The notes under the pieces were generated by a model. That model had not been told where the DNA came from. It ran no database searches and saw only the letters and a list, made by a program, of their open reading frames with translations. Below are positions 15,199 through 42,606 of a DNA stretch of 61,662 bases, one piece after another (position 1 is the first letter of the stretch; every line of letters starts with the position of its first letter). Origin of the DNA: a virus. The stretch is from the IMG/VR virus record IMGVR_UViG_3300035665_000034, positions 1-61,662 of that record; one strand, given 5' to 3'. The position numbers and the translations under genes are program-made.

Positions 15199-15228
15199 TG
15201 ATACGTCGCAGGCGTCGGGAGCTTTACG
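15199..15228 (-). promoter_or_regulatory. CGTAAAG-N16-CGTATCA promoter, copy 1
   Basis: CGTAAAG (15222-15228), 16-nt spacer, CGTATCA (15199-15205). The TAA in CGTAAAG is the stop codon of 15224-16174. Drives 15165-13300. Confidence 0.65.
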
Positions 15229-16174
15229 TCGCGGCCCAAAAAACCTGCCCGTCGCGCTTCGCGCGCGTGGCGAGCCCGAGCTTGGCGAGTCGGAACAGGA
15301 CAGAAGGCGTGCCGCGATGCCGCCCGACGTCGCCCCACAATGCGCGTGCGAACGCCTGCGCGGTCATCGGCCCGCGTTCGCGGAGGAGCGCGAGTCCGCG
15401 CGCCTCGTCGCGCTCGACGTGTTCGAGCTTCAACGCGACCGCCCCGCCGAGGATGAGCGCGCGGACTGATTCGCTGACCGACTCGCCGTAACGCTTCGCG
15501 CGTTCGTCGACGATGCTCCAGCCGTTCGCGCTCATGCGGAGCGTCGTCGACTTCGAGTTTCGGATCGTCTCGTCGGAGTAGCGGTCCTCGCGCAGCGGCG
15601 GGCCGACGGGCGTCTTGCTCGCTGCAACGATCAACGACTCGCACTCGACGCCGCGAGACGTTCCGTTGACGAGCACGAGCGCGTCTACGAAGCGCAGGAT
15701 CGAAGGTCCGATGGCGACGCCTCGGTCGAGTCTCGGTTCGGCGTCGCGTGCCCGCATGTCGGCCTCGACGCGGCGCACTTCGCGCGCAAACTTCGCGGGC
15801 GTGATCCCGAGCGACTTCAGAACCTCGGAACGCCTGACCGACGCCTCGCGCGCGGCGACCTCGCGGTCGACTTCAGGACGCGCCTTCGCGACGGCTGCGC
15901 CGCGCGCGATGAGCGCGCGAAGAAGCGCGGCGTCTTCGATCTCAGGCGCGACGAACTGCCGCCAGCGTCGAGCAACGTCTTCGACGCGGAGCGCGTCAAT
16001 CGTGAGCGAAGCGCGGCCCTCGACGCGATCAACGGCAGGGATCGGGAGCGGCGGCGAAGTCATGCCGTCCGCGAGGCGCACAAGCGCGATGCACTCGTCT
16101 GCGTTCGTTCGCGTTGCGACGCGCGCAAGCTCGGAGACGCGCGCGTGGAGCCACTTCGGCGCGCTGATTTTCAC
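15224..16174 (-). CDS. Hypothetical protein with C-terminal winged-helix-like domain
   Basis: A 316-residue protein. The first two thirds are unrecognised. Residues about 255-316 (ALLRERGPMTAQAFARALWG, then PSVLFRLAKLGLATRAKRDG) read as a winged helix of the DNA-binding type. The ATG at 16174 overlaps the upstream TerS-like gene (ATGA), so the pair is co-translated. Confidence 0.6.
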   Translation of the reverse strand: MKISAPKWLHARVSELARVATRTNADECIALVRLADGMTSPPLPIPAVDRVEGRASLTIDALRVEDVARRWRQFVAPEIEDAALLRALIARGAAVAKARPEVDREVAAREASVRRSEVLKSLGITPAKFAREVRRVEADMRARDAEPRLDRGVAIGPSILRFVDALVLVNGTSRGVECESLIVAASKTPVGPPLREDRYSDETIRNSKSTTLRMSANGWSIVDERAKRYGESVSESVRALILGGAVALKLEHVERDEARGLALLRERGPMTAQAFARALWGDVGRHRGTPSVLFRLAKLGLATRAKRDGQVFWAAT

Positions 16175-16662
16175 GAGTCGCCCGACGCGAACTGTCGTCG
16201 CAGGTCGTCGGGCACGACGACGCCGACCGACTCAAGAACCGCGATGGCCTGCGTTGCGATCTCGGGGTCGAGCGCGACGCCGGAAGGGTTCGGCGCGGTC
16301 GTGATCGCCTCGGCAGTCGAGCCGAATGCGGCGCGTCTTCGCTTCGCGAGAAGCCATTGATGGGCGCCGACTTGAACGCTGCTCTCGGCGTCGTGGACGA
16401 GCTTCAGCGAACGAATCACGCCGCGCGAATCAGCGCGACGGACTGCCGTTCGGAAGTCTTCGATCTCGTGTTCGGCCTTCGTGACTGCGGGCCGCTCGGG
16501 CTCGCGCAGCCAAGCGCGGAACGTCGCGACGGGCACGCCCGCCGCATAACAGGCGTCGTCGACAGGGGCGCCGAGGCCGATGAAGGCGAGCAGTTCCGCG
16601 CGCTGCGTCTCGCCCAACTTCGTTGGCGACTCGACGTCCTTCTTCGCGCGCTTGGCTCCCAT
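16171..16662 (-). CDS. Terminase small subunit-like DNA-binding protein
   Basis: A 163-residue protein with an N-terminal helix-turn-helix (APVDDACYAAGVPVATFRAW, residues about 32-51), then EDFRTAVRRADS and HQWLLAKRRRAAFG at about 100-113. This layout is that of phage small terminases, which recognise packaging sites. It lies far from TerL, which is unusual; another helix-turn-helix regulator remains possible. Confidence 0.5.
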   Translation of the reverse strand: MGAKRAKKDVESPTKLGETQRAELLAFIGLGAPVDDACYAAGVPVATFRAWLREPERPAVTKAEHEIEDFRTAVRRADSRGVIRSLKLVHDAESSVQVGAHQWLLAKRRRAAFGSTAEAITTAPNPSGVALDPEIATQAIAVLESVGVVVPDDLRRQFASGDS

Positions 16663-16670
16663 CGGCAGGA

Positions 16671-16699
16671 GCCTAAGCGGCGAACGGTCGGCGCGTCAA
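16671..16699 (-). promoter_or_regulatory. Sigma70-like promoter for TerS-like operon
   Basis: TTGACG (16694-16699), 17-nt spacer, TTAGGC (16671-16676), and 8 nt to the ATG at 16662: the same geometry as the promoter of the ParB-like gene. Confidence 0.45.
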
Positions 16700-16715
16700 T
16701 CGCGCCCGGTCGAGG

Positions 16716-17874: not shown

Positions 17875-17919
17875 ACCTAGCCGTGCTTTTTGTTCTGCGC
17901 CCGTTCTGTCGCAACGCGT

Positions 17920-18240
17920 TCAGGCGCTCATCGCGGCAGCATAAACGGCGTTCGCCTCGTCGATGGCAGCGGCGTAGGCAGCGGCGTAGGCTTCGCAGGC
18001 GGCAGCGAAAACGGCGTGGGCTTCATCGCACGCGGCGTACATCGCTGCGGCGTACTCTCTCTCGAAGGCGACGGTGCCGGGAGCGGCGGCGCGGAACGCG
18101 GCAGCGTAACCGGCACCGGGAGCAGCAGCGCGAGCCGCGACGTAAGCAGCGTGGGCTTCGTCTGCCGAACGGGCGCGAACGTCGGCAGCAAATTCGTAGG
18201 CGGCCCCGAGGTCATTCGCGATCTGCTTTGCGTTCTTCAT
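17920..18240 (-). CDS. Ala/Tyr-rich repeat protein, paralogue B
   Basis: A 106-residue protein starting MKNAKQIANDLGAAYEFAAD. More than half of it consists of AAYxAA, AVFAAACEAYAAAYAAA and similar repeats, two cysteines included. Shares style and length with the protein at 12845-13171. Own cassette upstream and a GCGTT/AACGC hairpin after the stop. Function unknown. Confidence 0.6.
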   Translation of the reverse strand: MKNAKQIANDLGAAYEFAADVRARSADEAHAAYVAARAAAPGAGYAAAFRAAAPGTVAFEREYAAAMYAACDEAHAVFAAACEAYAAAYAAAIDEANAVYAAAMSA

Positions 18241-18364: not shown

Positions 18365-18913
18365 TCAGGCGTTTCCGAACCGCTCGGCGAGCGCGACGTT
18401 CGCGCGGTGTGCGTTGAACAGGTCGCCTTGACCTGCGTCGCGCATCGCGGCGAGCACCTTCGCGCGGGCCCGCCCGATGAGAACTGCGCGGGTCGACGTG
18501 CCGTTGCCTGTCGTCGAGAAGGCCCGACGCTCGCCGTCGGTCAGGCGAGCGAAGGCGTCTTCGAGCGCGTGCTCGATCTCGCTCGCGCACTCTCGGGCGC
18601 GAAGCTCGACGTCGGGCGCGAACGTCTCGTCGGCGAAGCGCGCGTCGTCGGCCGCGCTGAAGTCGCCGTCGTCGAGCGTCGACGCGTCCAAGCTCGACTC
18701 GCGCGTGGCCCTTCGCGAGCGACCTCGCAGGTACGAGAGCGCGACGCTTCGAGTCGCCGCCCGAACGTAACCTACGTGCTCGGCGGTCGTGCGGTTCGGG
18801 TCGAGTCGGCCGAGGCACTTGATCAGCGCGTCTTGCGCGACGTCCTGCGCCGCGTCGTCCCGAAGATACTGCCGAGCGGTGCCCTGCGCCGCCTTCACGA
18901 GTTCAGCGTGCAT
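18365..18913 (-). CDS. Sigma-70 family (ECF-like) RNA polymerase sigma factor
   Basis: A 182-residue protein. Residues about 15-65 match sigma region 2: DDAAQDVAQDALIKCLGRLD, then EHVGYVRAATRSVALSYLRG and a basic RSRR. Residues about 130-165 resemble region 4 (ARLTDGERRAFS then TRAVLIGRARAKVLAAMRD), but the usual first helix of the helix-turn-helix seems shortened by about 15 residues. It would redirect host RNA polymerase to phage promoters. Third gene of the CobT-like operon; it overlaps the preceding gene by 11 bp. Confidence 0.72.
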   Translation of the reverse strand: MHAELVKAAQGTARQYLRDDAAQDVAQDALIKCLGRLDPNRTTAEHVGYVRAATRSVALSYLRGRSRRATRESSLDASTLDDGDFSAADDARFADETFAPDVELRARECASEIEHALEDAFARLTDGERRAFSTTGNGTSTRAVLIGRARAKVLAAMRDAGQGDLFNAHRANVALAERFGNA

Positions 18914-19328
18914 AGGAATGAAGCTCCTGCTTGACGGCCTCGATCACGGTCGCGTCAAAGTCCTGTTTCAGAATCCAGCGCAGATAGTCGCTCGGAACGT
19001 CGCGGAGCAGCTTGCCCTTGTGCGCGCCGAACCCGATCACGGGGCCGTCTGGCGTCATGTGAATCTTCCCGCCCTTGCCCGGCCTCGGCGCAGTCGTCGG
19101 GCTCGGCGCGGCGGTCGCCGCTGCCTTGCGTTCTTCGGCGATGCGCTTCGCCATGCCGCTGACCGACACGGGCGACGACTCGCGCTCGACGCGTTCTGCT
19201 GCGCCGCCGAACTCCTCGGCGAACGTCGTCGGACGCGGCTCGTCCGCTTGCTTGTAGGTCGCCGTCACCGCGCCCGGTTCGGGCTTCGCGTCGACGCTGA
19301 ACGCCTTAAGGAAGTCCTCGCGCTTCAT
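18903..19328 (-). CDS. DUF3820-like protein
   Basis: A 141-residue protein. The C-terminal 45 residues, with GFGAHKGKLLRDVPSDYLRW at about 98-117, match the DUF3820 / exonuclease-associated fold found in phages and in exodeoxyribonuclease tails. The first 95 residues are a low-complexity linker. Coupled to the CobT-like gene by ATGA and to the sigma gene by an 11-bp overlap. Biochemical role unknown. Confidence 0.7.
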   Translation of the reverse strand: MKREDFLKAFSVDAKPEPGAVTATYKQADEPRPTTFAEEFGGAAERVERESSPVSVSGMAKRIAEERKAAATAAPSPTTAPRPGKGGKIHMTPDGPVIGFGAHKGKLLRDVPSDYLRWILKQDFDATVIEAVKQELHSYAR

Positions 19329-21232
19329 CGGGTGCCTCGCTTCTTCAGCAGTTCGCGCAGGATGTGAGTCACCTGCGGGATGATGTCGGCGTCGGTCATG
19401 CAGACGCCGTGGATCGGGTAGAGGTCTTTCACGCCGTTGTGGACGACGCCGAGCCCGGCGACCTCGATCCCGGCCTTGTTCACGAAGTCGACCGCTTCGC
19501 GAAGATGCGGCAGGCCGTTCCGCGAGTCGATGCGCGTCCCGTAGTGCTCGGGGATTCCGTCGCTGACGGTGATCACGATCTTGCGGTTCTCGGGGCGCGC
19601 TGCGACGCGTCGCGCAGCGTGAATCAGCGCGCCGCCGTCGTCATTGTTCGCGCTCCCGGCGAAGCCGTTGAAGTTCGCGGCGCACTTCTCGACGCGCTCG
19701 CCGAACCGGATCATCCGCTTCTCGACCAAGCTCTCGGTGCGCGTCGCGCCGATCAAGTCGCGCGCGTCGACGTGCGTCCTCAAGATGTTCGTGAAGCTGA
19801 CGACCTCGTAAGGCACGCCGCACGCCTCGAAGACGCGACCCATGACGAAGACCGCGCGGAGCGCCATCTCGACGCGCCCGCAAGGACCCATCGAGCCCGA
19901 GTCGTCGAGAAGAATCGTGACGGCCGTCGAGGTCGCCGGGCGCTTCAAGTCGCGCGTAAAGACGCGGCGCTCGCCGCACGAGACGCCTGCAAGCGCGCGC
20001 GAATCGAGCCGCCCCGACTCCTGCTCGCCAACCCGAACTGCGCCTTGAGCGACGAGTAACGAGATCAAGCGCGACGTCGCGCCCTGCGCCGTCGTCTTCG
20101 AGAACGCGAGGGCCCGCGCGACGTGCTCTTTCGGCGCGCTGGACGACTTGATCTCCTCGAACGTGTCGAGCGCCTTCACGCGAGCAGGCGCGACGTCTCC
20201 GCGCCAGCCCGCTCGTCCCGAACGCGCCTTGTCTGCGGCGTCGCCGAGGGCTTCGAGCGCGGCCTCGACCGCACCCTCGAACGTGGGCGCGGAGAGCGCT
20301 TCGTCGAGGGCGATCTTCACCGACTCGCCGTCGGTGCCCGAGTCGCCCTTGACCTTGCCGCCCTTGGCATCTTCGGCCTCTTCGCCCTCTTCGCCGTCGC
20401 TCTCGGCGTCGCCGTCGGCAGCGCCGCCGCCGTCGGCAGCGCCGCCGCCTTCTTCGCCGCCTTCTTCGCCTTCCTCGCCCGAGTCGCCTTCGCTCTCGCC
20501 GTCGGCAGGCTCGCCTTCGCTTTCGCCCTCGCCGGGCTCGGCGGCGTCTTCGGCGTCTTCGCCTTCTTCGCCGTCGTCGCCGGGCTCGCCGTCGTCGCCG
20601 GGCTCGCCGTCGTCGCCCTCGCCTTCAGGGCTGCCGGTCGCGCCCGACAGGGCGAGGATGATGCGTTCGGTGATCTCGACTGCGCCGCGCGGCGTGTCGA
20701 CGGTCGCGACCTCGGCGACGAAGCCGTCGAGCACGCGGTCGATGGCGGCTTGATCCGCCTGCGCCCACGCGGCAGGCACCGCGCGCTTCTGCGCGCGGCT
20801 CATCATGCGGCAGATCGCACGGTGGAGCAGCGGGGCACCGGGCTCGGCTTGCTTGACGGCCCACGCGTGAATGCCGAGAAGGTTCGCGCGCGCCCCGGGC
20901 ATCCGAGCGCAGGCGCGGCGCTCAATACGAACGTCCTCAACCGCGTTCCAGATCGAACGGGCAATCGGCCCGAGCTTGCCGGCGACGTCGCTCGGGCGCT
21001 GGCCCTCGGGCCACATGCGCTCCTCTGCCACATGCGCGCACTCGTGGTCGAGCGCACCCTCGAAGGCGGCCCGCAGTTCGGGCTTGCCCTCGATGTTCCG
21101 CATCGAGGCCGGGATGTAAACCACACCTTGCTTCACGTCAGCGCAGAGTCGCTGCCCGCCGACGACAACCTTCACGCCGCTGTTCAGCGAGAAGGTCTTC
21201 GCGATCCGTTCTGCGTAAGTGTCGAGGTTCAT
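19325..21232 (-). CDS. CobT-like VWA protein with HExxH metallopeptidase motif
   Basis: A 635-residue protein. An N-terminal putative zinc-peptidase motif DHECAHV (about 82-88) is followed by a very acidic low-complexity linker of about 120 residues (210-330) and a C-terminal von Willebrand A domain with MIDAS motif LLDDSGSMG near residue 432. This is the layout of CobT-like partners of MoxR/CobS AAA+ ATPases; the ATPase is next door at 21366. Such pairs remodel or insert metals into protein targets; the phage target is unknown. Own cassette upstream. Confidence 0.8.
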   Translation of the reverse strand: MNLDTYAERIAKTFSLNSGVKVVVGGQRLCADVKQGVVYIPASMRNIEGKPELRAAFEGALDHECAHVAEERMWPEGQRPSDVAGKLGPIARSIWNAVEDVRIERRACARMPGARANLLGIHAWAVKQAEPGAPLLHRAICRMMSRAQKRAVPAAWAQADQAAIDRVLDGFVAEVATVDTPRGAVEITERIILALSGATGSPEGEGDDGEPGDDGEPGDDGEEGEDAEDAAEPGEGESEGEPADGESEGDSGEEGEEGGEEGGGAADGGGAADGDAESDGEEGEEAEDAKGGKVKGDSGTDGESVKIALDEALSAPTFEGAVEAALEALGDAADKARSGRAGWRGDVAPARVKALDTFEEIKSSSAPKEHVARALAFSKTTAQGATSRLISLLVAQGAVRVGEQESGRLDSRALAGVSCGERRVFTRDLKRPATSTAVTILLDDSGSMGPCGRVEMALRAVFVMGRVFEACGVPYEVVSFTNILRTHVDARDLIGATRTESLVEKRMIRFGERVEKCAANFNGFAGSANNDDGGALIHAARRVAARPENRKIVITVSDGIPEHYGTRIDSRNGLPHLREAVDFVNKAGIEVAGLGVVHNGVKDLYPIHGVCMTDADIIPQVTHILRELLKKRGTR

Positions 21233-21315
21233 TTCGTTTCCCTGTTTTCGTTTCGTCTCGTTCGCTTCTGAAAAACAAAGTAGCGCAGGGCGTTCGAGAA
21301 GAAAAGAAAAAAGTT
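21233..21315 (-). promoter_or_regulatory. Repeat cassette 9
   Basis: Tract 21298-21315 next to GTTAAC, TACTTT hexamer. Drives the operon CobT-like, DUF3820-like, sigma factor. Confidence 0.7.
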
Positions 21316-21365
21316 AACTTTCGTGCGCTTTTCCTGAACGCGTTGTCTCGCAACGCTTCGCGCGT

Positions 21366-22271
21366 TCAGCGCTTGACGTTCCAGCCCGTTACGCGCTGCG
21401 CGACGCCGCCCACATAGGCCCGCTCGGTCTTCCCGAGCTTGTCAGCGACCGCGTAGGCGTAGGCGAGTTCGACGCTGCCCATCGTCTGCGCGAGCGAGGC
21501 CCACGCGAGCAGGCGGCGCGTCGAGAACGTCGCCGAGGTCAGCGGCGATGGCGCGTTGAACGCCTCGCGGATTTCCCCTGCGACCTCGACCATCAGCTTT
21601 GCGCTCTCGGCGGCGATGCCCGTCTTCTCGACGAGCACGTTCGCCTCGACCCGCTTCGTCGGGTAGTCGCACTCCACCGCGACGAAGCGGTCGAGCGTCG
21701 CTTCGTTGAGACGGTTCGTTCCGGCGTAGAGGCCGGACTCGTCGCCCGATCCGATTGTGTTCGCCGTCGCGAAGACGCGGAAGTCGGGATGCGGGCGCAC
21801 GACCTCGCCTCCGTTCGCGGAGAGGGTCAGAACGTGCCCCTTTTCGAGAATCGCCTGAATCGTCAGGGCCAGCGAAGCGGGCGCCGCGTCGAATTCGTCC
21901 AAGATGAGCCACGAGCCCTCACGCATGGCAGCCGTGACTACGCCGTCGCGCCAAGCGACCACGGCGCCCGACTCGCCCTCGATCAAGGTCTGCTCGCCGA
22001 GGAAGTCGGACGACCGGACGTCGCCGTTCAGGTTCATGCGCCGCACGGGGCGGTTCAGAGCGCTCGCAAGCAACATGACGCTCGACGTCTTCCCGCAGCC
22101 CGTCGGGCCGTGGAGCAAGACGGGCAGGTCGAGCTTCACCGCCGCCGCGAGCGCGGCGAGCGTGCCTTTGTCGGGCGCGAAGCCGTCGTCCCACGCGGGG
22201 ACGAGGTGTTCGGTGTCGGCGTTCGTGTCGTGGATGGGCAGCACCACGCTGCCAAACTTGAGGTTCTTCAT
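21366..22271 (-). CDS. CobS/MoxR-like AAA+ ATPase
   Basis: A 301-residue AAA+ ATPase. Walker A GPTGCGKTSS at about 54-63, Walker B SWLILDEFDAAP at about 119-130, sensor-1 type VFATANTIGSGDES at about 164-177, and an arginine-rich C-terminal lid STRRLLAWA. The MoxR/CobS clade fits because the VWA partner is the adjacent gene. ATP hydrolysis would power remodelling through the VWA protein. Its separate cassette allows different expression from the partner. Confidence 0.85.
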   Translation of the reverse strand: MKNLKFGSVVLPIHDTNADTEHLVPAWDDGFAPDKGTLAALAAAVKLDLPVLLHGPTGCGKTSSVMLLASALNRPVRRMNLNGDVRSSDFLGEQTLIEGESGAVVAWRDGVVTAAMREGSWLILDEFDAAPASLALTIQAILEKGHVLTLSANGGEVVRPHPDFRVFATANTIGSGDESGLYAGTNRLNEATLDRFVAVECDYPTKRVEANVLVEKTGIAAESAKLMVEVAGEIREAFNAPSPLTSATFSTRRLLAWASLAQTMGSVELAYAYAVADKLGKTERAYVGGVAQRVTGWNVKR

Positions 22272-23078: not shown

Positions 23079-23312
23079 TTAGGCGCGGCGAGCCTCGTCG
23101 GCAGCGGCGACGGCGGCGTCGAGAGCGGCATAGGCCGCGTCGAGCGCGTCGTTCAGTGCGCGTCGTGCGCCTGCGAAGTTGCGGGTCTGGGCAAGTTCAG
23201 CGGCCGAAGTCGCGCGGTCGTATTCGCGGTGGGCTGCGCGGCAGGCAGCGCCGTGGGCCATGTTCGCGGTTGCGAGTGCGTCGGCGTAGCTGGCGTTCTT
23301 CTCGGTGTTCAT
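23079..23312 (-). CDS. Ala-rich repeat protein, paralogue C
   Basis: A 77-residue alanine-rich helical protein, MNTEKNASYADALATANMAH, ending ALDAAYAALDAAVAAADEAR. Like the proteins at 12845 and 17920 it starts with a short polar head and continues as an A/Y repeat helix. Own cassette. Confidence 0.58.
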   Translation of the reverse strand: MNTEKNASYADALATANMAHGAACRAAHREYDRATSAAELAQTRNFAGARRALNDALDAAYAALDAAVAAADEARRA

Positions 23313-25098: not shown

Positions 25099-25274
25099 TT
25101 GCAGACCTCGCGCGCACCTTGACGGCACGCCTCGACGAGAAACGAAACGTCGCGTCGGGCGCGTTCTTCGTTGCCCTCGCTCGTCGTTCTGCCGAGCGCG
25201 AAGCCAATCGCGCTGCCGAACGTGAAGAACCCGAACAGCACGATCAATGCTCGAACGCTGCTGAACTCGTTCAC
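25095..25274 (-). CDS. Small membrane protein
   Basis: A 59-residue protein with a GTG start overlapping the upstream stop. One transmembrane segment (ALIVLFGFFTFGSAIGFALG, about 9-28) is followed by a charged tail with two cysteines (LVEACRQGAREVCK). Placed between a regulator and the methyltransferase. Function unknown. Confidence 0.6.
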   Translation of the reverse strand: MNEFSSVRALIVLFGFFTFGSAIGFALGRTTSEGNEERARRDVSFLVEACRQGAREVCK

Positions 25275-25558
25275 TGGAACATCCACAACGTCGGTCCTCC
25301 GACGGTCAGCGTGTCGACAGGCACGCGCAGCGCCTTCGCGAAGCGCTCGGTCGTGACCGCGTTCCCGATCATCGGCTCGCGAAGCGTGTCGTCGCCGCGC
25401 TCGATCCACTTCCGAACCGAGCCCGACGAGACGCGCTCGGCGACGCAGAACTCGATCATCGACATCCGCCTGAACCGCAGCGCGTCGCGCAGGCGCTCGC
25501 AGCGCTCCTCCGCTTCCTTCGACGCGTGCTCGCGTTGCTTTCCTCGTTTGCCGCCCAT
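25271..25558 (-). CDS. Helix-turn-helix regulator
   Basis: A 95-residue protein. SMIEFCVAERVSSGSVRKWI (about 33-52) has the form of a helix-turn-helix of the Cro/XRE type, followed by a short domain that ends TVGGPTLWMFQ. GGAGG lies upstream of the ATG. First gene of the operon regulator, membrane protein, methyltransferase, 24104 gene, nuclease; it may autoregulate. Confidence 0.65.
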   Translation of the reverse strand: MGGKRGKQREHASKEAEERCERLRDALRFRRMSMIEFCVAERVSSGSVRKWIERGDDTLREPMIGNAVTTERFAKALRVPVDTLTVGGPTLWMFQ

Positions 25559-25582: not shown

Positions 25583-25612
25583 GTGTACGTTCAGCGCGCC
25601 GTGAGCTTTACG
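25583..25612 (-). promoter_or_regulatory. CGTAAAG-N16-CGTACAC promoter, copy 2
   Basis: CGTAAAG (25606-25612), 16-nt spacer, variant -10 CGTACAC (25583-25589). It overlaps the last codons of the SbcC-like gene. Drives the operon from 25558. Confidence 0.6.
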
Positions 25613-27594
25613 TCGCCGCTCGCAGAAACTTCGATTGTGGCGACGGCGACGTCTTCGACTGCAACCGAGCCGACGACGAAGACTCGATGAAACCCCGCGA
25701 GGCTCACGGCGCGGACGAGCATCGACGCGTAGCGACCGACGTTCTCGCCGTACAGCGCTGCAGGCGTTTCGTCACGCCAAAGCGTCTCGATTCGCGAGCC
25801 TCGCCCGCGTTCGAGGGCGAAGCAGGCGAGTGCGATGCGCAACGCCTCGTCGACGATCACCTGCTCGCCGCCCGACAACGAACTCAAGTCGCCCGAGCGC
25901 CCGCGCAGCGAATCGTTCACGACTATCGCGAAGTCGTCGGCCTCGCCCTTGCCCGACTTCAGCGCGCGCGTCGTTCGCACGTCGACGCTGAATCGGTCGC
26001 CGTAGCAGGCCGAGAGCAGGTCGTTCGCGAGGTCGGCGACGCGTGGCCCTGCGCTCTCGATTTCGAGCGCCGGGATTCCTGTAGGCGAGAACGCCTTCAC
26101 GATCTTGTCGAGCGACCGAGCGCGCGCGAACGTCGGCCCGAGCAGAGCGCGCTTCTTCGCGATCTCGACGAGTTGCCGGTCGCAGTTCTGAAGGCGCTCG
26201 ATGCACTCCCCGATCCTGCGCGACACGGCACCGGCCGCCCTCGCGTTGTCCGCGAGCAGATCGCGAAGCGTCTCGACGGACTCGCCGCCCTCGGCGGCCT
26301 TCGACGCGTCGACGTCGGCTTGCGCGATGGCGAGTTCTTCGCGCAGCGTGGCGGCGACTTCGAGTTGTCGAGTCTGGACCTCGTAAGCCTTCCCGATCCT
26401 GTCCGCGAGCGCGTCGATCTTCCGCGACGCGACGAGACGATCTTCGGCCGCCTTCAAGTCGGCCTCGGACGAAACGACGATTCGCTCGTAGCTCGCGAGC
26501 TTTTCGATCTGCTCGTCGAGCATTCGCTGAATCTCGACAGTCGTTCGCGCCTGCTCGATTGCGTCGCCGAGCAGCGCGCAGCCCGAGAACTTGCCTTCGC
26601 CTTTGCATGGCACCGATTCGAGCAGACGTTCGGCCTTCTTCGCGCGTTCGAGACTGGACTTCAAACCTTCGATCTCGCGCCGCGCATCCCTCGCCTTGAG
26701 CTTCCACTCGGCGAGGCTTTCGCGCGCCCTCTCGACTTCTCCCTCGTCGGTGTCGGGCGCGATGCCGATGCCGCGCATGTCGTGGCGCGCGGTCTTGATC
26801 TCCGACTTGGCCCACGCGAGGTCTTCTTCGGTCGCGTCGAGCTTCTTCGCGAGCGCGTCGCGCTTCGCGATCCGTGCGTCGAACTCCCGTCGCGCCCTGT
26901 CGCGTTCGTGTGCCGCAGGCGCGCGGGCTTCGAGCTTCACGCGCTCGGCGACGCGCTCGTCGTCCGCGTCGTTGGCCTCGCGCAGTTCGCGAGCGAGCAC
27001 GTCGCGCGACGCCTTCATCGTCGCCTCGGTTGTCTCGATGCCCTCGAACGCGGCGAGGTCGAGCGCTTCGCGCTTCGCTTTCGCTGCGCGGGCGATGTCG
27101 TTCATCCGTCCAAGGTCGAGGTAGTACGCGAACAATTCGCGGCGCTCGGCGACGGGCAGAACGGCGAAGCGCCCCGCGCCGCCCTGCGACGCGAACGCCG
27201 TCGCGTAGAACGACGACGACTCGCCGAAGACGCGAACGACTTCCTCGTCGAACGACTTCAGCTTGCCGTCGGTCTTCACGCCTGCGCGCGACATGACCGC
27301 GCCCTTCAGCGTGGTCGTCCCGTTCTCGACGCGGAGCGTGGTCTTCTCGCCGTCGATCTCGTAGGCGTTCTCGATGAACGCGCCCGGCGCCATCCACGAC
27401 TGGATGTTCGACGGCGTGCGCGTCGGGAGTTCGCGGTACATGACGCCCGGGGCGAGGCATTCGAGCAGCGTGGTCTTCCCCGCGCCGTTCGGTCCCGTGA
27501 TCGCGATCACGCCGGGAGGCAGGGCAGAGAAGTCGAGTTCGACCGTGCGGTCGTACCGCGTCACGCCGCAGAATTTCGAGCGAAGAACCTTCAA
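25591..27594 (-). CDS. SbcC/Rad50-like ATPase (gp46-type recombination nuclease subunit)
   Basis: A 667-residue SMC-type ATPase. Walker A GPNGAGKTTLLE at about 34-45, long coiled coil, and a central cysteine pair VPCKGEGKFSGCALL (about 325-340) in place of a zinc hook. The C-terminal half carries LSSLSGGEQVIVDEALRIAL (ABC signature) and the Walker B-like stretch ALACFALERGRG. With the SbcD-like nuclease (28792-29901) it processes DNA ends in recombination-dependent replication. The start is TTG at 27594, placed by GGAGG 7 nt upstream. Confidence 0.88.
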   Translation of the reverse strand: MKVLRSKFCGVTRYDRTVELDFSALPPGVIAITGPNGAGKTTLLECLAPGVMYRELPTRTPSNIQSWMAPGAFIENAYEIDGEKTTLRVENGTTTLKGAVMSRAGVKTDGKLKSFDEEVVRVFGESSSFYATAFASQGGAGRFAVLPVAERRELFAYYLDLGRMNDIARAAKAKREALDLAAFEGIETTEATMKASRDVLARELREANDADDERVAERVKLEARAPAAHERDRARREFDARIAKRDALAKKLDATEEDLAWAKSEIKTARHDMRGIGIAPDTDEGEVERARESLAEWKLKARDARREIEGLKSSLERAKKAERLLESVPCKGEGKFSGCALLGDAIEQARTTVEIQRMLDEQIEKLASYERIVVSSEADLKAAEDRLVASRKIDALADRIGKAYEVQTRQLEVAATLREELAIAQADVDASKAAEGGESVETLRDLLADNARAAGAVSRRIGECIERLQNCDRQLVEIAKKRALLGPTFARARSLDKIVKAFSPTGIPALEIESAGPRVADLANDLLSACYGDRFSVDVRTTRALKSGKGEADDFAIVVNDSLRGRSGDLSSLSGGEQVIVDEALRIALACFALERGRGSRIETLWRDETPAALYGENVGRYASMLVRAVSLAGFHRVFVVGSVAVEDVAVATIEVSASGDVKLTAR

Positions 27595-27621: not shown

Positions 27622-27651
27622 TGATACGCGGAACGGCGTCGGGTCTTTACG
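27622..27651 (-). promoter_or_regulatory. CGTAAAG-N16-CGTATCA promoter, copy 3
   Basis: CGTAAAG (27645-27651), 16 nt, CGTATCA (27622-27628), and a leader of 27 nt with GGAGG before the TTG start of the SbcC-like gene. TAA in the -35 box is the stop of 27647-28084. Confidence 0.68.
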
Positions 27652-28084
27652 CTGGAGACGGCTTTTTCAGGTCGCGACGCGCTGCTTCGAGTTGCGCCCG
27701 CAGCATGTCGACTTCGGCTTGAAGCGCATCGCACTTCACGTCGAACGCGTGCGCCTTCTTCAGCGCGGTGTCGGTTTCGACATCGGCGTCTTCGATCTCG
27801 TCTAACGCAGCAGCGAGTTTTTCGCGGGCTTCTTCGAGGTCCGCTCGCGCTTCCTCAAGCTCGTCCGTCAGTTCGGCGTTCTTCTCGTCGAGTTCGGTCT
27901 CGTTCTGCTCCGACCTCTTGCGCGCTTCGAGCGCGTCGAGCAGCGGACGAACGTGCTCGGGAGGGATCGCGATCCCGAGCCCGTCGAACTGCGCGTCCTT
28001 CAGCTTCAGAACGAAGTCGTCGAAGTTGTCGTCGAGCGCGATGTCGCCAGCCAGAAAGAGCGGTTCGTATTCGATGCACTTCAT
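27647..28084 (-). CDS. Hypothetical coiled-coil protein
   Basis: A 145-residue protein. The first 55 residues form a small domain; the remainder, rich in Glu, Ala and Leu (LTDELEEARADLEEAREKLA and onward), is a coiled coil. The start overlaps the stop of the 58-residue gene upstream (ATGA). It lies in the SbcD operon and may assist the SbcCD-like complex, which is inference. Confidence 0.62.
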   Translation of the reverse strand: MKCIEYEPLFLAGDIALDDNFDDFVLKLKDAQFDGLGIAIPPEHVRPLLDALEARKRSEQNETELDEKNAELTDELEEARADLEEAREKLAAALDEIEDADVETDTALKKAHAFDVKCDALQAEVDMLRAQLEAARRDLKKPSPA

Positions 28085-29906: not shown

Positions 29907-29936
29907 TGATACGCCTCTCGCCGTCGAGTCTTTACG
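29907..29936 (-). promoter_or_regulatory. CGTAAAG-N16-CGTATCA promoter, copy 4
   Basis: CGTAAAG (29930-29936), 16-nt spacer, CGTATCA (29907-29913), and 5 nt to the ATG at 29901. Predicted leaderless transcript. TAA in the -35 box ends the gene 29932-30108. Confidence 0.7.
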
Positions 29937-30108
29937 GCCGCAGGATCAACGCACAACGATTGCAGATCGCGAGCGCCGAGATTCGCCCGGCAGACGAGAC
30001 GACGTGGCCGCCTGCGTCGTTCCGTTCGTGCTCGCATTCGAGCAGCTTGCGCGCGTGCAACTTCTCGCGCGCGGACTCGGAGAGCTTCGGCATTCGATCA
30101 CGAGCCAT
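29932..30108 (-). CDS. Very small cysteine-containing protein
   Basis: A 58-residue protein, MARDRMPKLSESAREKLHAR, with cysteines in LLECEHERNDAGG and ICNRCALILRP that could form a zinc ribbon. It overlaps the RuvC-like gene by 11 bp. No recognised family. Confidence 0.58.
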   Translation of the reverse strand: MARDRMPKLSESAREKLHARKLLECEHERNDAGGHVVSSAGRISALAICNRCALILRP

Positions 30109-32348: not shown

Positions 32349-33530
32349 TCACTTGCCCGCCTTCTTCTTCGCGCGAGCGAGGAGCATCTTCTGGAGTTCG
32401 TCGATCTCGGCCTCGTCCTCGTCGTCGACCTTCTCGGCATCGGCCTCGAACGGCGGGTCGTCCTCGACGACGGGCTCGGGCTTCTTCTCGGGGGCGGCCG
32501 TGCGACCGACGACACGCGAAGGCCCGACGACACGCGAAGGCCCGACGACACGCGACGCGGGCGTGGGGGCGCGCGTCGCGGTCTTCGTCTCGGGCTCCGT
32601 CTTCGCCCTCGGCGCGGGCTTCATCTCGGCCATCGTTGACGACTTGTCGCAGGCGGTCGCGCACGGACCCTTGAACGGGCACTTGACGCACGTCGGGTCC
32701 TTCGCGTCGTGTTCATTCTCGAAGCACGAGGGCGGCGTCGCCGAGGTCGATTCTTCGGCCTCGCTGCTCGTTCCTCCCACCATGTCGGCGAGCGTGTCGA
32801 ACGAACGAACGAACGCGGTCGCGAGCCCGAGAAGGTCGTTCTCGCCCGACTCGATGGCGCGAACTGCGGCGCGCATCGGCTTCGGGATCCTCACGGGCGT
32901 TCGCAGCGTTTCGACGTCGGGGCCGCCCGAGTAACGCGTCGACTTGAAGTCGGTGCCGACGCGAGTGATCCGAACGTAGGTCGCCGCGTCGGGATCGGTG
33001 ATGTCGCCCGCGTCGGAGATCGCGTCGAACACGATCTCGCGCTGCTTGAAGCTGGCGAACCACGGACGGATCACGCGCTCGTGCTCGGCGACCTCGGTGC
33101 GTCGGCCCTTCGGGTCGATGAAGGCAATCGGGATCACGTTGAACAGCCACGATTGCTTGCGGCGCTCGTCGTCGCCTTCCTCGAACGCCGCGCAGACGGG
33201 GCACCCCTCGTCGACGTCGAGTTCGACCGCCCACTCGGGCTTGCCGTTCTCGATGTTGCGTTCGTTGCGCGCGGCGAGCGCGTTCTGCGCGGCGTCGGTG
33301 AAGACGAACGAGTCGCGAGCGATGCACGCGACCATCTTCCGCTCGGGACCGATCCCGTAGTGAAGATCGACCTCGACGCAGGGGTAGTCGCCCATCGCCG
33401 CACTCGGCGGGCAGATGTAGACGATCCACGTCCCCGGCGCGGAGACCTTGAACATGTCGGGTCGCGCGGGTCGTTCGCGCGACGAGGACTCCTCGACGCG
33501 TCGTTCGCGGAACTTGGAGACGTCCATCAC
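32349..33530 (-). CDS. Candidate ssDNA-binding protein (gp32-like)
   Basis: A 393-residue protein. The first 220 residues are a beta-rich domain with CPVCAAFEEGDDERRK (a possible zinc site, about 111-114); a second cysteine cluster CVKCPFKGPCATAC is near 280-295. The tail carries three RVVGPS repeats (18-bp DNA repeats about 32510-32560) and ends in an acidic segment and AKKKAGK. Acidic linkers and the place just before RecA suggest an SSB. The start is GTG at 33530 (GTGA overlap) or ATG at 33527, which has better GGAGG spacing. Confidence 0.6.
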   Translation of the reverse strand: MMDVSKFRERRVEESSSRERPARPDMFKVSAPGTWIVYICPPSAAMGDYPCVEVDLHYGIGPERKMVACIARDSFVFTDAAQNALAARNERNIENGKPEWAVELDVDEGCPVCAAFEEGDDERRKQSWLFNVIPIAFIDPKGRRTEVAEHERVIRPWFASFKQREIVFDAISDAGDITDPDAATYVRITRVGTDFKSTRYSGGPDVETLRTPVRIPKPMRAAVRAIESGENDLLGLATAFVRSFDTLADMVGGTSSEAEESTSATPPSCFENEHDAKDPTCVKCPFKGPCATACDKSSTMAEMKPAPRAKTEPETKTATRAPTPASRVVGPSRVVGPSRVVGRTAAPEKKPEPVVEDDPPFEADAEKVDDEDEAEIDELQKMLLARAKKKAGK

Positions 33531-34051
33531 TCACCCCTCCCGAGCCGCCCTCGGCGGCTGTCGTTGTCGCTGTTGATCTTGCCCGTCGGGCGCGGTGCGC
33601 GCGTGTCGACGGCGACGGCCTCCGTGTCGAGCTTCGCGCGCGACGCGTCGACGCGGATGCGAAGAAGCTGCGCCTTCAGACGCAGCGCCTCGCGATACTG
33701 CGCGACGAACTCGGCGCGCTCGACGTTCGCCGCGATGTAGTCCTTGAACTCGGCGAACTTGACGTCGGCCTCGACGATGTTCTTCACGCGCCACTCGGGC
33801 AGCTTGTCGCCCGACGTGACGGCGATCTCGGACGCGCGCGCGCGCCACGCGCGGTACTCGGCGTCGAGTCGGTCGCCCTCGGCGGCGAACATCGCCGACA
33901 GTTCGACGACCTGCGAGAACGCGTTGGCGACTTGCTCGGTGTCGGCGTCCAGATCGCCCGTGAGCTTGAGGTCGTCCGTGCCGAGCGTGACCGCACACTC
34001 GACCTCCTCATCGAGCCCTCGGTCCGCAAAATACTTGAAAGTCCGATACAT
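33527..34051 (-). CDS. Hypothetical helical protein
   Basis: A 174-residue mostly helical protein, starting MYRTFKYFADRGLDEEVECA. It opens the operon of SSB candidate, RecA, MazG-like and RuvC-like genes. The leader after the promoter holds AGGACGGAA before the ATG. No family recognised. Confidence 0.62.
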   Translation of the reverse strand: MYRTFKYFADRGLDEEVECAVTLGTDDLKLTGDLDADTEQVANAFSQVVELSAMFAAEGDRLDAEYRAWRARASEIAVTSGDKLPEWRVKNIVEADVKFAEFKDYIAANVERAEFVAQYREALRLKAQLLRIRVDASRAKLDTEAVAVDTRAPRPTGKINSDNDSRRGRLGRGE

Positions 34052-34090: not shown

Positions 34091-34120
34091 TGATACGCCC
34101 TGCGCCGTCGAGCCTTTACG
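34091..34120 (-). promoter_or_regulatory. CGTAAAG-N16-CGTATCA promoter, copy 5
   Basis: CGTAAAG (34114-34120), 16-nt spacer, CGTATCA (34091-34097), then a leader of 39 nt to the ATG at 34051. TAA is the DnaE stop codon. Confidence 0.68.
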
Positions 34121-37708: not shown

Positions 37709-37738
37709 CCATACGCTGAACGTCGCCCTGCCTTTACG
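37709..37738 (-). promoter_or_regulatory. CGTAAAG-N16-CGTATGG promoter, copy 6
   Basis: CGTAAAG (37732-37738), 16-nt spacer, CGTATGG (37709-37715), then 5 nt to the ATG at 37703, the same spacing as copy 4. Leaderless transcription of the polymerase gene is predicted. TAA is the primase stop. Confidence 0.66.
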
Positions 37739-38636
37739 AGCCCGTGCGCTTCAGCGCGTGCGCGATCTGCTCGGGCGTCGCGCTGCCCGGGTCGACGCCC
37801 GGGTCGAGCTTCGCGACGGACGACGAGATCCCGATCTCTTTCAGCGCAACGCAGAGCGTTCTCGCTTCGCGCGGCGCCTCGGGGTCGAGCATCACGTCGA
37901 CGTGCGAAGGGTCGAGCTTGGCGATTGCGAGGATCTGCCCTGCGTCTGCGACCTTCCCGAACAGGCCGACCGCGAGGACGCCCGCGCGGGCGCAGCCGAG
38001 GACGTCGAAGGCGCCCTCGACGACGGCGAGCCTTCGCCCTGTCCCGATGAGATCGTGACCGAACAGAAGCCCGAAGCGCGAGCCTGAAGGCCCGAGGTAG
38101 CGCGGCTCGCGGTCGTCGACTGCGCGCGCCTGAAAGAACCGAAGCTCGCCGGTCATGTAGCACGGCAAGATCACGCGCTTCGCGTAGCGTCCCGAGTTCG
38201 CGAACCCGAGCCCGAAGCGAGCAGCGATCTTCGGCGACACGTCGCGGCGCGTCAGGTAGGCAGGCACTCGCCAGCGCAGGCCGTCGAAGACGGGCTCGAA
38301 CTCGTCGGGCAGCGTGATCGACCTCGGCTCGACGAACGGTTTGCGGACGCCCTTCTCGATGCGCCCGCGCGCGGTTCGCGCGTCGAACAAGTCGGCCTCT
38401 TGGACGCGCTTCTTCGCCTCGGCAAACGGCACTTCGTCGACTGCCGCGATGAGCGTCGCGAGCGAACCGCGTTCGTCGCAGCGGTAGCAGATCCAGCGCC
38501 CGTTGACCGCCGAGACGTAGAGCTTGCGCTCGGCGTCGCAGAACGGGCAGTCGCACACAATCTGCTCGCCGCTCGAACCTGCGCTCTTGCCGCGAACGTC
38601 GAGACGTTCGGAAACGATCTGCTCGACGTCGATCAT
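37734..38636 (-). CDS. DnaG-type primase
   Basis: A 300-residue primase of reduced length. N-terminal zinc finger CDCPFCDAERKLY (about 28-40) and WICYRCDERGS (about 48-58) as in DnaG/T7-type primases; TOPRIM motif VVEGAFDVLG (about 210-219) followed by VDVMLDPEAP (about 251), where the second acidic residue is Glu in place of the more usual Asp. It has no helicase domain; the helicase is the separate gene at 38883. Confidence 0.85.
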   Translation of the reverse strand: MIDVEQIVSERLDVRGKSAGSSGEQIVCDCPFCDAERKLYVSAVNGRWICYRCDERGSLATLIAAVDEVPFAEAKKRVQEADLFDARTARGRIEKGVRKPFVEPRSITLPDEFEPVFDGLRWRVPAYLTRRDVSPKIAARFGLGFANSGRYAKRVILPCYMTGELRFFQARAVDDREPRYLGPSGSRFGLLFGHDLIGTGRRLAVVEGAFDVLGCARAGVLAVGLFGKVADAGQILAIAKLDPSHVDVMLDPEAPREARTLCVALKEIGISSSVAKLDPGVDPGSATPEQIAHALKRTGS

Positions 38637-38890: not shown

Positions 38891-40211
38891 CGCCCGACGA
38901 CGCCTCCGAAGCCGTCTCGTGGAACTCGCCGGTCGCGAGGTGCGCGTCGACGTAGATCGTGAAGTGCTTCACGCTCCCGAGTCGGTTCTTCATCACGACG
39001 AAGCGAAGCGACTTCGTGCCCGCTTCTTCGTCCGCGTCGCCTTCCATCATGCCGAGCATCGTGTCGGCGATGCGTGCCTTGTCGTAGCTCTCGGCGACGG
39101 CCGCAGACGTCAACGACTTGCCCTCGAACGCCTTCGGCGCCTGCGTCGTCGACCAGACGGTGACAGGCGCCAAGCGCGAATCGACCGCGATGGCCTTGAG
39201 GCCCCAATACACCGCCGACGCGCCGAGCCGGTGCGACTCGACCTTGCCGGGCGGCGAGAGATGATCCGCAGAGTCGACGACGAGAACGATCTCGGCCTTC
39301 GGGTTCGCCTCGCGGATGCGCTGAACGTAGACGCGGAGCGCGCTCGCCTTCGACTGCGGCGGCAGTTCGCGGATGTGCAAGCGCTCGACGATGTGCCCCA
39401 TTTTCTTGAAGCGAGAGCGGAACGTGTCGGCGTCTGCGGCGGTCATGCCCGGCCCGATGCGTTCGCGAGAGATCCCGGTCAGGCGCGCGTCGTAACGCGT
39501 CGACAGTTCGCCGATGGTCTCCTCGGTCGCGACGTGGATCACGATTGCGCCGGGCGACTTCGTGAGCGCGTTCCAGCCGATGTCTACGGCGAACGTGCTC
39601 TTGCCGACGTTCGTCAACGCGACGACGAGATTCACAGTTCCCGAGTTCACGCCGCCGTTTGTGATCCTGTCGAACGTCGGGAGCGGCGTCCGAATCTTGA
39701 CCTTCTTCGCGCCGGGCGACGTGAACTTCGCGAGTCGTTCTTCCCACGCTGACCAATCGACTTCTTCTTCGAGGATCGACGCAGCGCGGGCAGCTTCGAG
39801 CCCTTCGTGAAGCGCGGCGTCGGCTGCTTCGAGGTCGCCGTCTTCGATGCCTTCGAGCGCTGCGCCTGCGGCGCGTCGCATCGCGGCGGTCCTGACGAGA
39901 TCGCGCAGACGCTCCAGACTCGACTTCGGCGACGGCACCTTGCGTCTGCGAAGCTCGACGAGCGAGCGCGCGGCAAGCTCGAAGTCCTCGGCGCGCTTGA
40001 AGTGCGCTTCGAGTTCTTCAGCCCAATGCAGAGGCGACGGAAGCTCGCCCGTGCGCGCGTGATTCTCCGAGAGGATCTTCCAGATCGTCGCGCTCGTCTT
40101 CGACGAGAACGAACGCCCCGCCAGAACGACGGTCGCGCTCGAAGTGAACGACGCGTCGCGCAGCGCTTGAGCGAGGACGTCGCGCTCAAGTTCGACGTCG
40201 TAGTCTTTCAC
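38883..40211 (-). CDS. DnaB-like replicative helicase
   Basis: A 442-residue RecA-fold hexameric helicase. N-terminal domain of about 140 residues, then Walker A LVVALTNVGKSTFAVD (about 195-210), HVATEETIGEL, Walker B EIVLVVDSADHLSP (about 300-313) and STTQAPKAFEG. The proteins before and after (40208, 38633) are probable replication partners. Its stop overlaps the small gene downstream; the start at 40211 overlaps the upstream stop. Confidence 0.85.
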   Translation of the reverse strand: MKDYDVELERDVLAQALRDASFTSSATVVLAGRSFSSKTSATIWKILSENHARTGELPSPLHWAEELEAHFKRAEDFELAARSLVELRRRKVPSPKSSLERLRDLVRTAAMRRAAGAALEGIEDGDLEAADAALHEGLEAARAASILEEEVDWSAWEERLAKFTSPGAKKVKIRTPLPTFDRITNGGVNSGTVNLVVALTNVGKSTFAVDIGWNALTKSPGAIVIHVATEETIGELSTRYDARLTGISRERIGPGMTAADADTFRSRFKKMGHIVERLHIRELPPQSKASALRVYVQRIREANPKAEIVLVVDSADHLSPPGKVESHRLGASAVYWGLKAIAVDSRLAPVTVWSTTQAPKAFEGKSLTSAAVAESYDKARIADTMLGMMEGDADEEAGTKSLRFVVMKNRLGSVKHFTIYVDAHLATGEFHETASEASSGDE

Positions 40212-41077
40212 GGCTTCGACTCGACGAACCCGATCTCGCGGGCGTGCTCGACGACGAGCGCGACCGCTTCGACGACCTCTTTCGGAACGTCGGGCGGCAG
40301 CGCGCGGCCCTCGTTCACGCGGGCGAAGTTCGCGAGCACTTGATCAACCGATCCCGAGAACCCGCGTTCGCGCAGGAACCGGCGCAGCGACTTCGAGTCG
40401 ATCACCTTCTTCGGGCGCGCGGCGAGGAACGTCGCGACGAAAGTCTCGGACTTCAGGAGCGAGTATGGGGGGAACGTCCCGCCACCGGACATGCGTGCGA
40501 AGGCGTCGGCGACGTGTTCGACGTAGGCGCGAAACGTGTCGGGCTTCACGCCCTGCGACTCGATGAACGCTTGCGTCTTCGCGAGTTCGTTCGACGCGCG
40601 CCGGGTGAGTTCGTACTCGGGTTGCGGGCGGCGTCTGCGCCCGCGATACGCGAGAGCCAGCGCGCACGGTTCGTCGTCGCCTTCAGGTGCACGAGAGCGC
40701 GGCTTCTTCCTGCGCTTGTCGGCCTCGAACACGACGCGCGCAACCTCGCGAACCGACTTCGCGATCATGCTGAACGCGATCACGTCGACCGCGCCCTCGG
40801 GCGAGGCGAAGAAGCAGCCGCTCGGCGGTTGCCCCCGCGTGCTCTCGAAACACGACTCACCTTCAGCGTGTCGGTGGACTTCGGTCGCGAGCACTTCGAC
40901 GCGGTGCCCGCGTCGCTCGACGAGACCCTTCGCTTCGAGCGCGTCGACGAGCGTCTTCGCTCGTTGGACGGACACGCCGAGGCGCGCGGCGACCGTCGTG
41001 ATCGGGCCGCGTGCGCTTTGGACGTGCGAAAGATGCGCGAGAGCATCGCCCTCGCGACGTGTGATCTTGTTCTCCAT
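40208..41077 (-). CDS. Winged-helix DNA-binding protein, possible replication initiator or helicase loader
   Basis: A 289-residue protein. Residues about 8-70 (HLSHVQSARGPITTVAARLG, then VQRAKTLVDALEAKGLVERR) form a MarR-like winged helix. The middle is basic and the C-terminus helical. Its place directly before DnaB, about 1.5 kb from the candidate origin, makes an initiation or loading role plausible. GGGGAG upstream of the ATG at 41077. Confidence 0.62.
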   Translation of the reverse strand: MENKITRREGDALAHLSHVQSARGPITTVAARLGVSVQRAKTLVDALEAKGLVERRGHRVEVLATEVHRHAEGESCFESTRGQPPSGCFFASPEGAVDVIAFSMIAKSVREVARVVFEADKRRKKPRSRAPEGDDEPCALALAYRGRRRRPQPEYELTRRASNELAKTQAFIESQGVKPDTFRAYVEHVADAFARMSGGGTFPPYSLLKSETFVATFLAARPKKVIDSKSLRRFLRERGFSGSVDQVLANFARVNEGRALPPDVPKEVVEAVALVVEHAREIGFVESKP

Positions 41078-41100
41078 GTTCTCCCCTTCATCGGCCCGCA

Positions 41101-41152
41101 CTCCCCGTAAAGGGGAGCCCCGGGCGACGCCGTTCCAAAGCGTCGCCCGGGG
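41101..41152. terminator. Two hairpins between the SF2 helicase and winged-helix genes
   Basis: A small stem CTCCCC/GGGGAG (41101-41117) abuts a 13-bp GC-rich perfect stem (41118-41130 with 41140-41152, 9-nt loop). Neither has a long U-run, so they may be factor-dependent terminators or an attenuator ahead of the gene at 41077. Confidence 0.55.
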
Positions 41153-41190
41153 TTGGAACACGGGCCTGCCGTCAGGCGGCGAGTTGCGAA

Positions 41191-42570
41191 TTACCCAATG
41201 GCCCCCGCGATTGCAATCGGGAACTTGAACGACCGATACAGCCGAAGCCGCTCCTCGGTTTGGCGAGCGAAAGCGGGATGATGAACGTCCACGAAGTCGA
41301 CGATCCGCGCTTCGCGTTTCCCTTCGTGCGGCGTCATACAGCGGAGGCGTTGTGTCGCGCTCGCGCTCGCGCCGCCGCCCTCGGCGTTCACGACCGCGCC
41401 GAGTTCGGGGATGTCGACGCCCTCGCCGAGAACCGTCCCGACGACGACTTTCACGACGCCTGCTCGAAGCCCTGCGACGGCGCGGTCTCGATCTTCGACC
41501 GACGTCGAGCCCGTCAGAAGTGCGATCTCTTTCGGCTTCAGTTCGGCACGCAGTTCAGAGACGAGCATCCGAGCGTGCCCGACGCGCGACGTGTCGACGA
41601 GAACCGAGAAGCCGTCGCGCACGAGGCCGAACGTTGCCGAGGCAATCGCCTTGTTCCGCGCGTCGCACTTCACGATCCCGTCCGAGTAGGTCGTCTTTTG
41701 CCAGCGCTCGGGCATCGACGGCGCGTCGTACTTCACGAACGTCACCGACGGCCGAACGAGAACGCCGCGCGCGATAAGGTCGACGAGCCCGACGCGATAG
41801 ACGACCGGGCCGATGGCGCGTTCGAGTAGCAGCGTCGAGCGCAGGTCGTCGGGAACGGTGCCGCTCAACCCGATCTTGAACGCGCACTCAAGCTGACGCA
41901 CGACGTCGGCCCACGCGTCGCCGAAGCCGACAACGTGGTGCGCCTCGTCGACGAAGCACGTCCCGAACGAACTTCGGAACGTCTTCCACCACGCCGTCTC
42001 CGAGCGTGCCGCGAGCGCCTGAATCGACGCGATCACGACGTCGCCCGTGTCGTCGTTCTCGCCTGAGCCGACGACGGTCACGCGAGCGCCCGAGAGCGAA
42101 CGCTCGAACGTCTCGCGAGCCTGCGCGACGAGGAAGTCCGAAGGCGCAACGAACAGGGTGCGAAGACCTGCGCTCCGCGCGATGCGTGCGGCGCACGTCG
42201 TCTTGCCCGAACGAATCGGGAGCGCGAGCACGGCGCGACCGAACGGGGCCTTGAGCGCTTCGAGCACGGCCTGAAGCTGATAGTCGCGAGGCTCGTGCCC
42301 CGTCCAGACCGTATCGATGCCGCGCACCCTTGGCGGGCCGTCCTCGGAGTAGGTGTACGACAACCCGTCGAGCAGCTTCGCGACCCGGGGCATGAGGCCC
42401 CGCTCGAAGTCGAACGCGCCACGGTTGCGCCGGAAGACCTTCGAGCGCCCGTCCCACGTTCCGTTCCGAAACGTAGGCGCGAACTCCGCGCCGGGCACCG
42501 CGAACGAGAGACCCGCCGTGAGGCGCTTCTCGATCTCCGCGAAGTCGTCGTTCGATGGGGTCAGCTTCAT
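41191..42570 (-). CDS. SF2 DNA helicase (UvsW/XPB-like)
   Basis: A 459-residue helicase. Walker A ALPIRSGKTTCAAR (about 115-128), DEAH box CFVDEAHHVVGF (about 205-216), motif III FKIGLSGTVPDDL, C-terminal domain with VLVDTSRVGHARML, GVVKVVVGTVLGEGVDIPEL, and motif VI SATQRLRCM. UvsW-type helicases unwind R-loops and branched DNA at phage origins; it adjoins the candidate origin at 42607. Predicted leaderless mRNA. Confidence 0.85.
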   Translation of the reverse strand: MKLTPSNDDFAEIEKRLTAGLSFAVPGAEFAPTFRNGTWDGRSKVFRRNRGAFDFERGLMPRVAKLLDGLSYTYSEDGPPRVRGIDTVWTGHEPRDYQLQAVLEALKAPFGRAVLALPIRSGKTTCAARIARSAGLRTLFVAPSDFLVAQARETFERSLSGARVTVVGSGENDDTGDVVIASIQALAARSETAWWKTFRSSFGTCFVDEAHHVVGFGDAWADVVRQLECAFKIGLSGTVPDDLRSTLLLERAIGPVVYRVGLVDLIARGVLVRPSVTFVKYDAPSMPERWQKTTYSDGIVKCDARNKAIASATFGLVRDGFSVLVDTSRVGHARMLVSELRAELKPKEIALLTGSTSVEDRDRAVAGLRAGVVKVVVGTVLGEGVDIPELGAVVNAEGGGASASATQRLRCMTPHEGKREARIVDFVDVHHPAFARQTEERLRLYRSFKFPIAIAGAIG

Positions 42571-42576
42571 GGACCC

Positions 42577-42606
42577 TGATACGCGAACCGAGGGCGACTC
42601 TTTACG
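42577..42606 (-). promoter_or_regulatory. CGTAAAG-N16-CGTATCA promoter, copy 7
   Basis: CGTAAAG (42600-42606), 16 nt, CGTATCA (42577-42583), and 6 nt to the ATG at 42570. Unlike most copies it lies in non-coding DNA, so its sequence is not constrained by coding. Confidence 0.72.

Follow-up and report, generated by a model that had tools for sequence, protein, structure and literature searches.

A probable two-box promoter class before replication and recombination operons of a T4-like phage record and a candidate ECF-type sigma factor that may read it

Phage sigma factors with promoters of their own are already known. In Salmonella phage 7-11 the sigma factor SaPh711_gp47 recognizes late promoters of the form GTAAtg-N16-aCTA, which have been mapped and reconstituted in vitro with transcription starts 6-9 nt away, and the authors of that study predicted that more phage sigma/promoter pairs would be found (PMC8948821). 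The ECF sigma factor gp36 of phage phiEco32 replaces host sigma70 for middle/late genes, has no region 4 and uses a single-box promoter, tAATGTAtA (PMC8948821). Phage T4 keeps sigma70 and directs it, by means of MotA/AsiA, to a replication and recombination regulon whose promoters carry a TAtaaT -10 and a MotA box (PMC2988021). In SPO1 the middle genes are served by a sigma factor of the phage itself, gp28 (PMC9429907). Among bacterial ECF systems, whose promoters typically have CGT in the -10 (PMC8103513), the PvdS iron-starvation box, TAAAT-N16-CGT, has boxes closely similar to those described below, with equal spacing and register (PMC2235872). PvdS belongs to a bacterial iron-response system that is unconnected with phage genes. 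The promoters of SPO1 gp28 differ from the two-box motif described here. In the present case a candidate sigma gene, an early promoter before it and the putative regulon all lie within one 62-kb record.

The window analysed was the whole of virus record IMGVR_UViG_3300035665_000034 (61,662 bases, 66% G+C, 8% intergenic). Judging from its gp23-type major capsid protein and gp20-type portal protein, which are accompanied by a maturation protease, the record is that of a T4-like phage. Replication is represented by a DNA polymerase III alpha, a DnaB-like helicase, a primase and a UvsW-like helicase, and recombination by UvsX/RecA, gp46/gp47 (SbcC/SbcD-like) proteins and a RuvC-like resolvase; CobS/CobT-like proteins are also encoded. 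A terminal repeat and tRNAs were looked for throughout the 61,662 bases and none were found. A Mom-like DNA modification protein (6323-7051; PHROG 1384, 2.7e-50) adjoins a ParB-like gene. Neither IMG/VR nor the phage collection contained a close relative of the phage, and for the polymerase the best matches had 29-34% identity. Similarly, searches of IMG/VR, the phage collection and genome contigs with the polymerase, UvsX, capsid and sigma proteins gave relatives at about 30% identity or none, and no relative carrying the motif or the sigma gene was found in these three sources.

The first-pass annotation of this DNA had listed seven copies of CGTAAAG-N16-CGTATCA and proposed that they form a second promoter class. 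All seven were recovered at the positions it had given, each with exactly 16 nt between the boxes, an identical CGTAAAG, and all on the minus strand (Table 1). Its description of the -10 boxes as near-identical holds for the five copies with CGTATCA and was overstated for CGTATGG (37709) and CGTACAC (25583). In agreement with the annotation, neither box matches the sigma70 consensus (TTGACA/TATAAT, 16-18 bp). A scan of the whole window with the fixed spacer, which the annotation had suggested as a check, gave five exact matches, every one at a gene junction. As also stated there, six of the sites precede replication or recombination operons, the exception being 15199, which is followed by genes without known function. 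The UvsW-like helicase (UvsW_N/ResIII) behind the 42577 copy is followed by 40208-41101, the DnaB-like helicase and the primase, and the HTH-like gene behind 25583 is followed by a methyltransferase-like gene and a PD-(D/E)XK exonuclease gene.

Table 1. Predicted promoters and the candidate sigma operon in the 61,662-base window
Feature	Position	Strand	Description
Middle promoter copy (predicted)	42577..42606	minus	exact CGTAAAG-N16-CGTATCA; 6 nt before ATG of UvsW-like helicase 41191-42570
Middle promoter copy (predicted)	37709..37738	minus	CGTAAAG-N16-CGTATGG, 2 mismatches; before DNA polymerase III alpha
Middle promoter copy (predicted)	34091..34120	minus	exact match; before operon 33527-34051, 32349-33530, UvsX/RecA, MazG-like, RuvC-like
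Middle promoter copy (predicted)	29907..29936	minus	exact match; 5 nt before ATG of SbcD/gp47-like nuclease 28792-29901
Middle promoter copy (predicted)	27622..27651	minus	exact match; before SbcC/gp46-like gene 25591-27594
Weaker middle promoter copy (predicted)	25583..25612	minus	CGTAAAG-N16-CGTACAC, 3 mismatches; before 25271-25558 (HTH-like)
Middle promoter copy (predicted)	15199..15228	minus	exact match; before 14440-15165, 13637-14443, 13300-13644 (function unassigned)
Tentative eighth copy	8369..8398	minus	CGTAAAC-N16-CGTACAG (matrix scan); before 7939-8319
Candidate ECF-type sigma factor, 182 aa	18365..18913	minus	TIGR02937, PHROG 1740, Sigma70_r2; region 2 clear, region 4 shortened
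Overlapping genes upstream of sigma gene	18903..21232	minus	CobT-like VWA 19325-21232 (CobT_C) and 18903-19328; gene overlaps
Early-class promoter	21275..21319	minus	T-tract, then CTACTTT; before CobT-like gene and sigma operon; one of 13 (pattern scan)

The five exact 14-base matches compare with about 0.0001 expected by chance. Of the nine CGTAAAG in the whole window, seven belong to these sites, as do five of the six CGTATCA; even the shorter TAAAG is found only ten times. Since the motif had been picked by eye, the early-promoter repeats were masked and every 6+6 dyad with a spacer of 10-24 nt was scored in an unbiased scan; dyads were ranked by enrichment scores and raw counts were dropped, as the GC bias made them useless. 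The motif was the top dyad, with a log10 score of 18.9, whereas ten order-3 Markov simulations reached no more than 8.9, and it is the strongest two-box motif of the window, early promoters aside. When each of the seven sites was left out of the matrix in turn, it still came out at rank 7 or better among 123,234 positions (rank 7 for both 37709 and 25583). Spacers of 14, 15 and 17-19 nt were scanned in the window as well and gave no gene-junction sites. The copy at 8369 is slightly outscored in the matrix scan by a chance intragenic antisense site and is for this reason only tentative. With it the window would probably have eight copies and, without it, seven. Scanning IMG/VR for the exact motif gave at least 80 loci, and given that no contig piece with several good copies was present among the matches listed, these were taken to be chance matches. 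A search of Rfam returned no match.

All eight copies, the tentative one included, are on the minus strand, and although intergenic DNA makes up just 8% of the window, seven of them have their -10 box there. The -10 box of the remaining one (37709) overlaps nothing but an alternative ATG upstream in the polymerase gene. The first-pass annotation had further noted that five copies take the TAA of their -35 box from the gene before, and the gene boundaries bear this out, the TAA being that gene's stop codon each time. The TAA ends 15224-16174 at 15199, 27647-28084 at 27622, a 53-aa ORF (29932-30093) at 29907, the polymerase gene at 34091 and the primase gene (37734-38636) at 37709. The same is true of the tentative copy, where it ends 8394-8792. 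We propose that the stop codon doubles as the -35 TAA because the promoters are packed into gene ends.

A purine is found 6 nt downstream of the -10 box in seven of the eight copies, and at 42577 the seventh nucleotide is the A of the ATG. Judged by this geometry, transcription would start 6-7 nt past the -10 box. At 29907, 37709 and 42577 the purine at the predicted +1 is the A of the start codon, the predicted positions being 42570/42571 for the 42577 copy and the A of the ATG at 37703 for the 37709 copy. If the boxes are indeed -35 and -10 elements, the mRNAs of the gp47-like nuclease, the polymerase and the UvsW-like helicase would then be leaderless. The gp47-like protein has no alternative start, since its reading frame is closed upstream by the -35 TAA and its match to the phosphoesterase domain already includes residue 1. 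For the polymerase gene, in-frame ATGs are present at 37703 and 37712; the first (37712) sits inside the -10 box, which makes 37703 the likelier start. For the other copies leaders of 19-44 nt are predicted, with purine-rich ribosome sites, several of them of GGAGG or GGAC type.

The first promoter class of the window comprises 13 near-identical early promoters on the minus strand between 9135 and 23400. They consist of CTTTTTTCTTTTCTTCT, then CTAYNTT, then TTTTCAGAAGCG, with TAYNTT as the -10, and they precede small early genes and the CobS/CobT genes. The pattern was searched for in IMG/VR and none was found. Unlike these 13, the two-box sites have no TAnnnT -10, which together with the fixed geometry, the placement at operon starts and the downstream purine supports the proposal of a second, non-sigma70 promoter class. 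The CobT-like VWA protein and the CobS-like AAA+ ATPase (19325-22271) each lie behind early promoters. The small early proteins at 12845-13171, 17920-18240 and 23079-23312 consist mostly of alanine-rich repeats of the AAYAAA/ADEA type.

The last gene of the overlapping run opened by the CobT-like gene encodes the candidate sigma factor. The 182-aa protein matched TIGR02937 (sigma70-ECF) over residues 11-134 (9.7e-7, below the curated cut-off), PHROG 1740, 'RNA polymerase sigma factor' (2.7e-6), and Pfam Sigma70_r2 (7.5e-4, again below the curated cut-off), and its pairwise score against E. coli RpoE was 5.3 standard deviations above shuffled sequences. With its 182 aa and no region 1 or 3 it has the layout of ECF (group IV) sigma factors, which are about 180 aa long and have domains 2 and 4 only. 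Region 2 (aa 1-87) was modelled at pLDDT 84, and when these residues were searched with Foldseek the top ten hits had probabilities of 0.89-0.99, most of them being region 2 of ECF-type sigma factors or the sigma chain of a transcription complex. The best neighbours were sigma-E region 2 structures, some bound to -10 DNA, at probability 0.99 and an E of 0.3, which is not significant for this short helical domain. According to the model, the N-terminal domain folds like sigma region 2. Region 4 is about 10 residues short in the HTH compared to SaPh711_gp47 and RpoE. The full-length model has a pLDDT of only ~45 in this part and is too poor for a fold search. A frame error as the cause of the short region 4 was rejected, as the other frames show no HTH. 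No family match to an anti-sigma factor was obtained for the operon partners of the sigma gene, of which one is the CobT-like VWA protein and the other is small and has a tail resembling DNA pol III epsilon. A linked anti-sigma gene is not universal among ECF (group IV) sigma factors.

The closest parallel is phage 7-11. SaPh711_gp47 also belongs to PHROG 1740 (1.1e-38), is 25% identical to the 182-aa protein over 116 aa (E 0.003), and GTAAGG/T-N16-ACTA sites are present in the 7-11 genome. Like SaPh711_gp47, the candidate is of the small two-domain kind, and the promoters proposed for it match those of 7-11 in their GTAA-type -35, in a spacer of 16 nt and in their number, eight per genome if the tentative copy is counted; GTAAAG-N16-CGTA in the present window is in the same register as GTAAtg-N16-aCTA. 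However, the 7-11 regulon consists of late (structural) genes and not of replication and recombination genes, its -10 is aCTA as opposed to CGTATCA, region 4 of SaPh711_gp47 is intact and the two phage types are unrelated. With phiEco32 gp36 the candidate would share the replacement of host sigma70 by a phage ECF sigma, whereas two boxes are found here in place of one. T4 resembles the present phage in the replication/recombination regulon and in the capsid genes; it differs in retaining sigma70, and no conserved TAnnnT, such as the T4-style sigma70 -10 located 12 bp from the MotA box, was found near the two-box sites.

Taken together, we consider it probable, at roughly 70%, that the two-box sites are middle promoters read by the phage ECF-type sigma factor encoded at 18365-18913. 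At the onset of infection, host polymerase carrying its main sigma would read the 13 T-rich early promoters, one of which would drive the CobT-like operon with the sigma gene at its end. The ECF-type sigma would then bind the host core polymerase and direct it to CGTAAAG-N16-CGTATCA, with the -10 recognized by region 2 and the -35 by the C-terminal part. In this way the polymerase, the primase, the helicases, UvsX and the gp46/47-like nuclease would be switched on in concert, with transcription beginning 6-7 nt past the -10 box and thus at the start codon itself for the gp47-like, polymerase and UvsW-like genes. The pairing of sigma and motif is suggested by their coexistence in one genome and by the parallel with 7-11, and the middle timing is similarly a prediction. 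ECF-type promoters have a narrow spacer, a CGT in the -10 and an AAC-like -35. All eight copies have CGT in the -10 and the fixed 16-nt spacer; the -35 of the motif is TAAAG and not AAC. The main reason for doubt over the pairing is the short region 4; the strict -35 box would have to be read by this shortened region after all, or else by a partner.

The same doubt bears on the alternative that the sites are promoters read by a borrowed host ECF sigma while the phage protein acts otherwise, for example by blocking the core. Features such as TAAA..N16..CGT are common to many bacterial ECF sigma factors, and a phage sigma with a shortened region 4 would fit such a division of labour. Nevertheless, the phage has its own ECF-type sigma gene in an early operon, and a PHROG 1740 member reads a nearly matching motif in phage 7-11, which makes a host sigma an unlikely reader. 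We regard it as similarly improbable that the sites are tandem operators, in which a MotA-like activator or repressor would bind a direct repeat of CGTA half-sites spaced by 23 bp, or about two helical turns. CGTA begins both boxes (CGTAaag, CGTAtca) and HTH-type genes are present within the regulated operons, where the winged-helix protein 40208-41101 or the HTH-like protein 25271-25558 could be the binder. However, both of these genes are in middle and not early operons, MotA-type activation requires a good sigma70 -10 (PMC2988021) while no conserved TAnnnT lies beside the sites, and, counted from the start codons of the predicted leaderless genes, the two boxes fall at about -35 to -29 and -12 to -6.

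An element acting on RNA, as a translational operator or a processing site between cistrons, would account for the placement at gene junctions and for the three copies touching a start codon. Yet no common secondary structure was found, folding energies were near those of shuffled sequences, and the sites lie anywhere between 5 and about 49 nt from the start codon with the 16-nt spacer constant, so that we consider this reading very improbable. Both the direct-repeat operator and the RNA element were ranked below a switch to the phage sigma.

The motif and the sigma gene are a candidate for a further pair of the kind predicted by the 7-11 authors. The chances are about even that the phage performs a true sigma swap, with a shortened ECF sigma on a two-box promoter in place of MotA/AsiA, and with leaderless polymerase, gp47-like and UvsW-like genes. 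This would suggest that phages with T4-type cores can run a middle regulon via sigma replacement and not sigma appropriation. A sigma with a shortened region 4 that is paired with a strict -35 box would also be relevant to DNA recognition by ECF sigma factors.

Directly upstream of the promoter of the UvsW-like gene is an AT-rich 300-bp gap (42621-42871) which contains about five copies of AAATYTMAACGAATGC. Three of them have the same orientation at 72-74 nt spacing, and inverted and degenerate copies are also present. The repeats are iteron-like and mark the gap as a candidate replication origin or operator.
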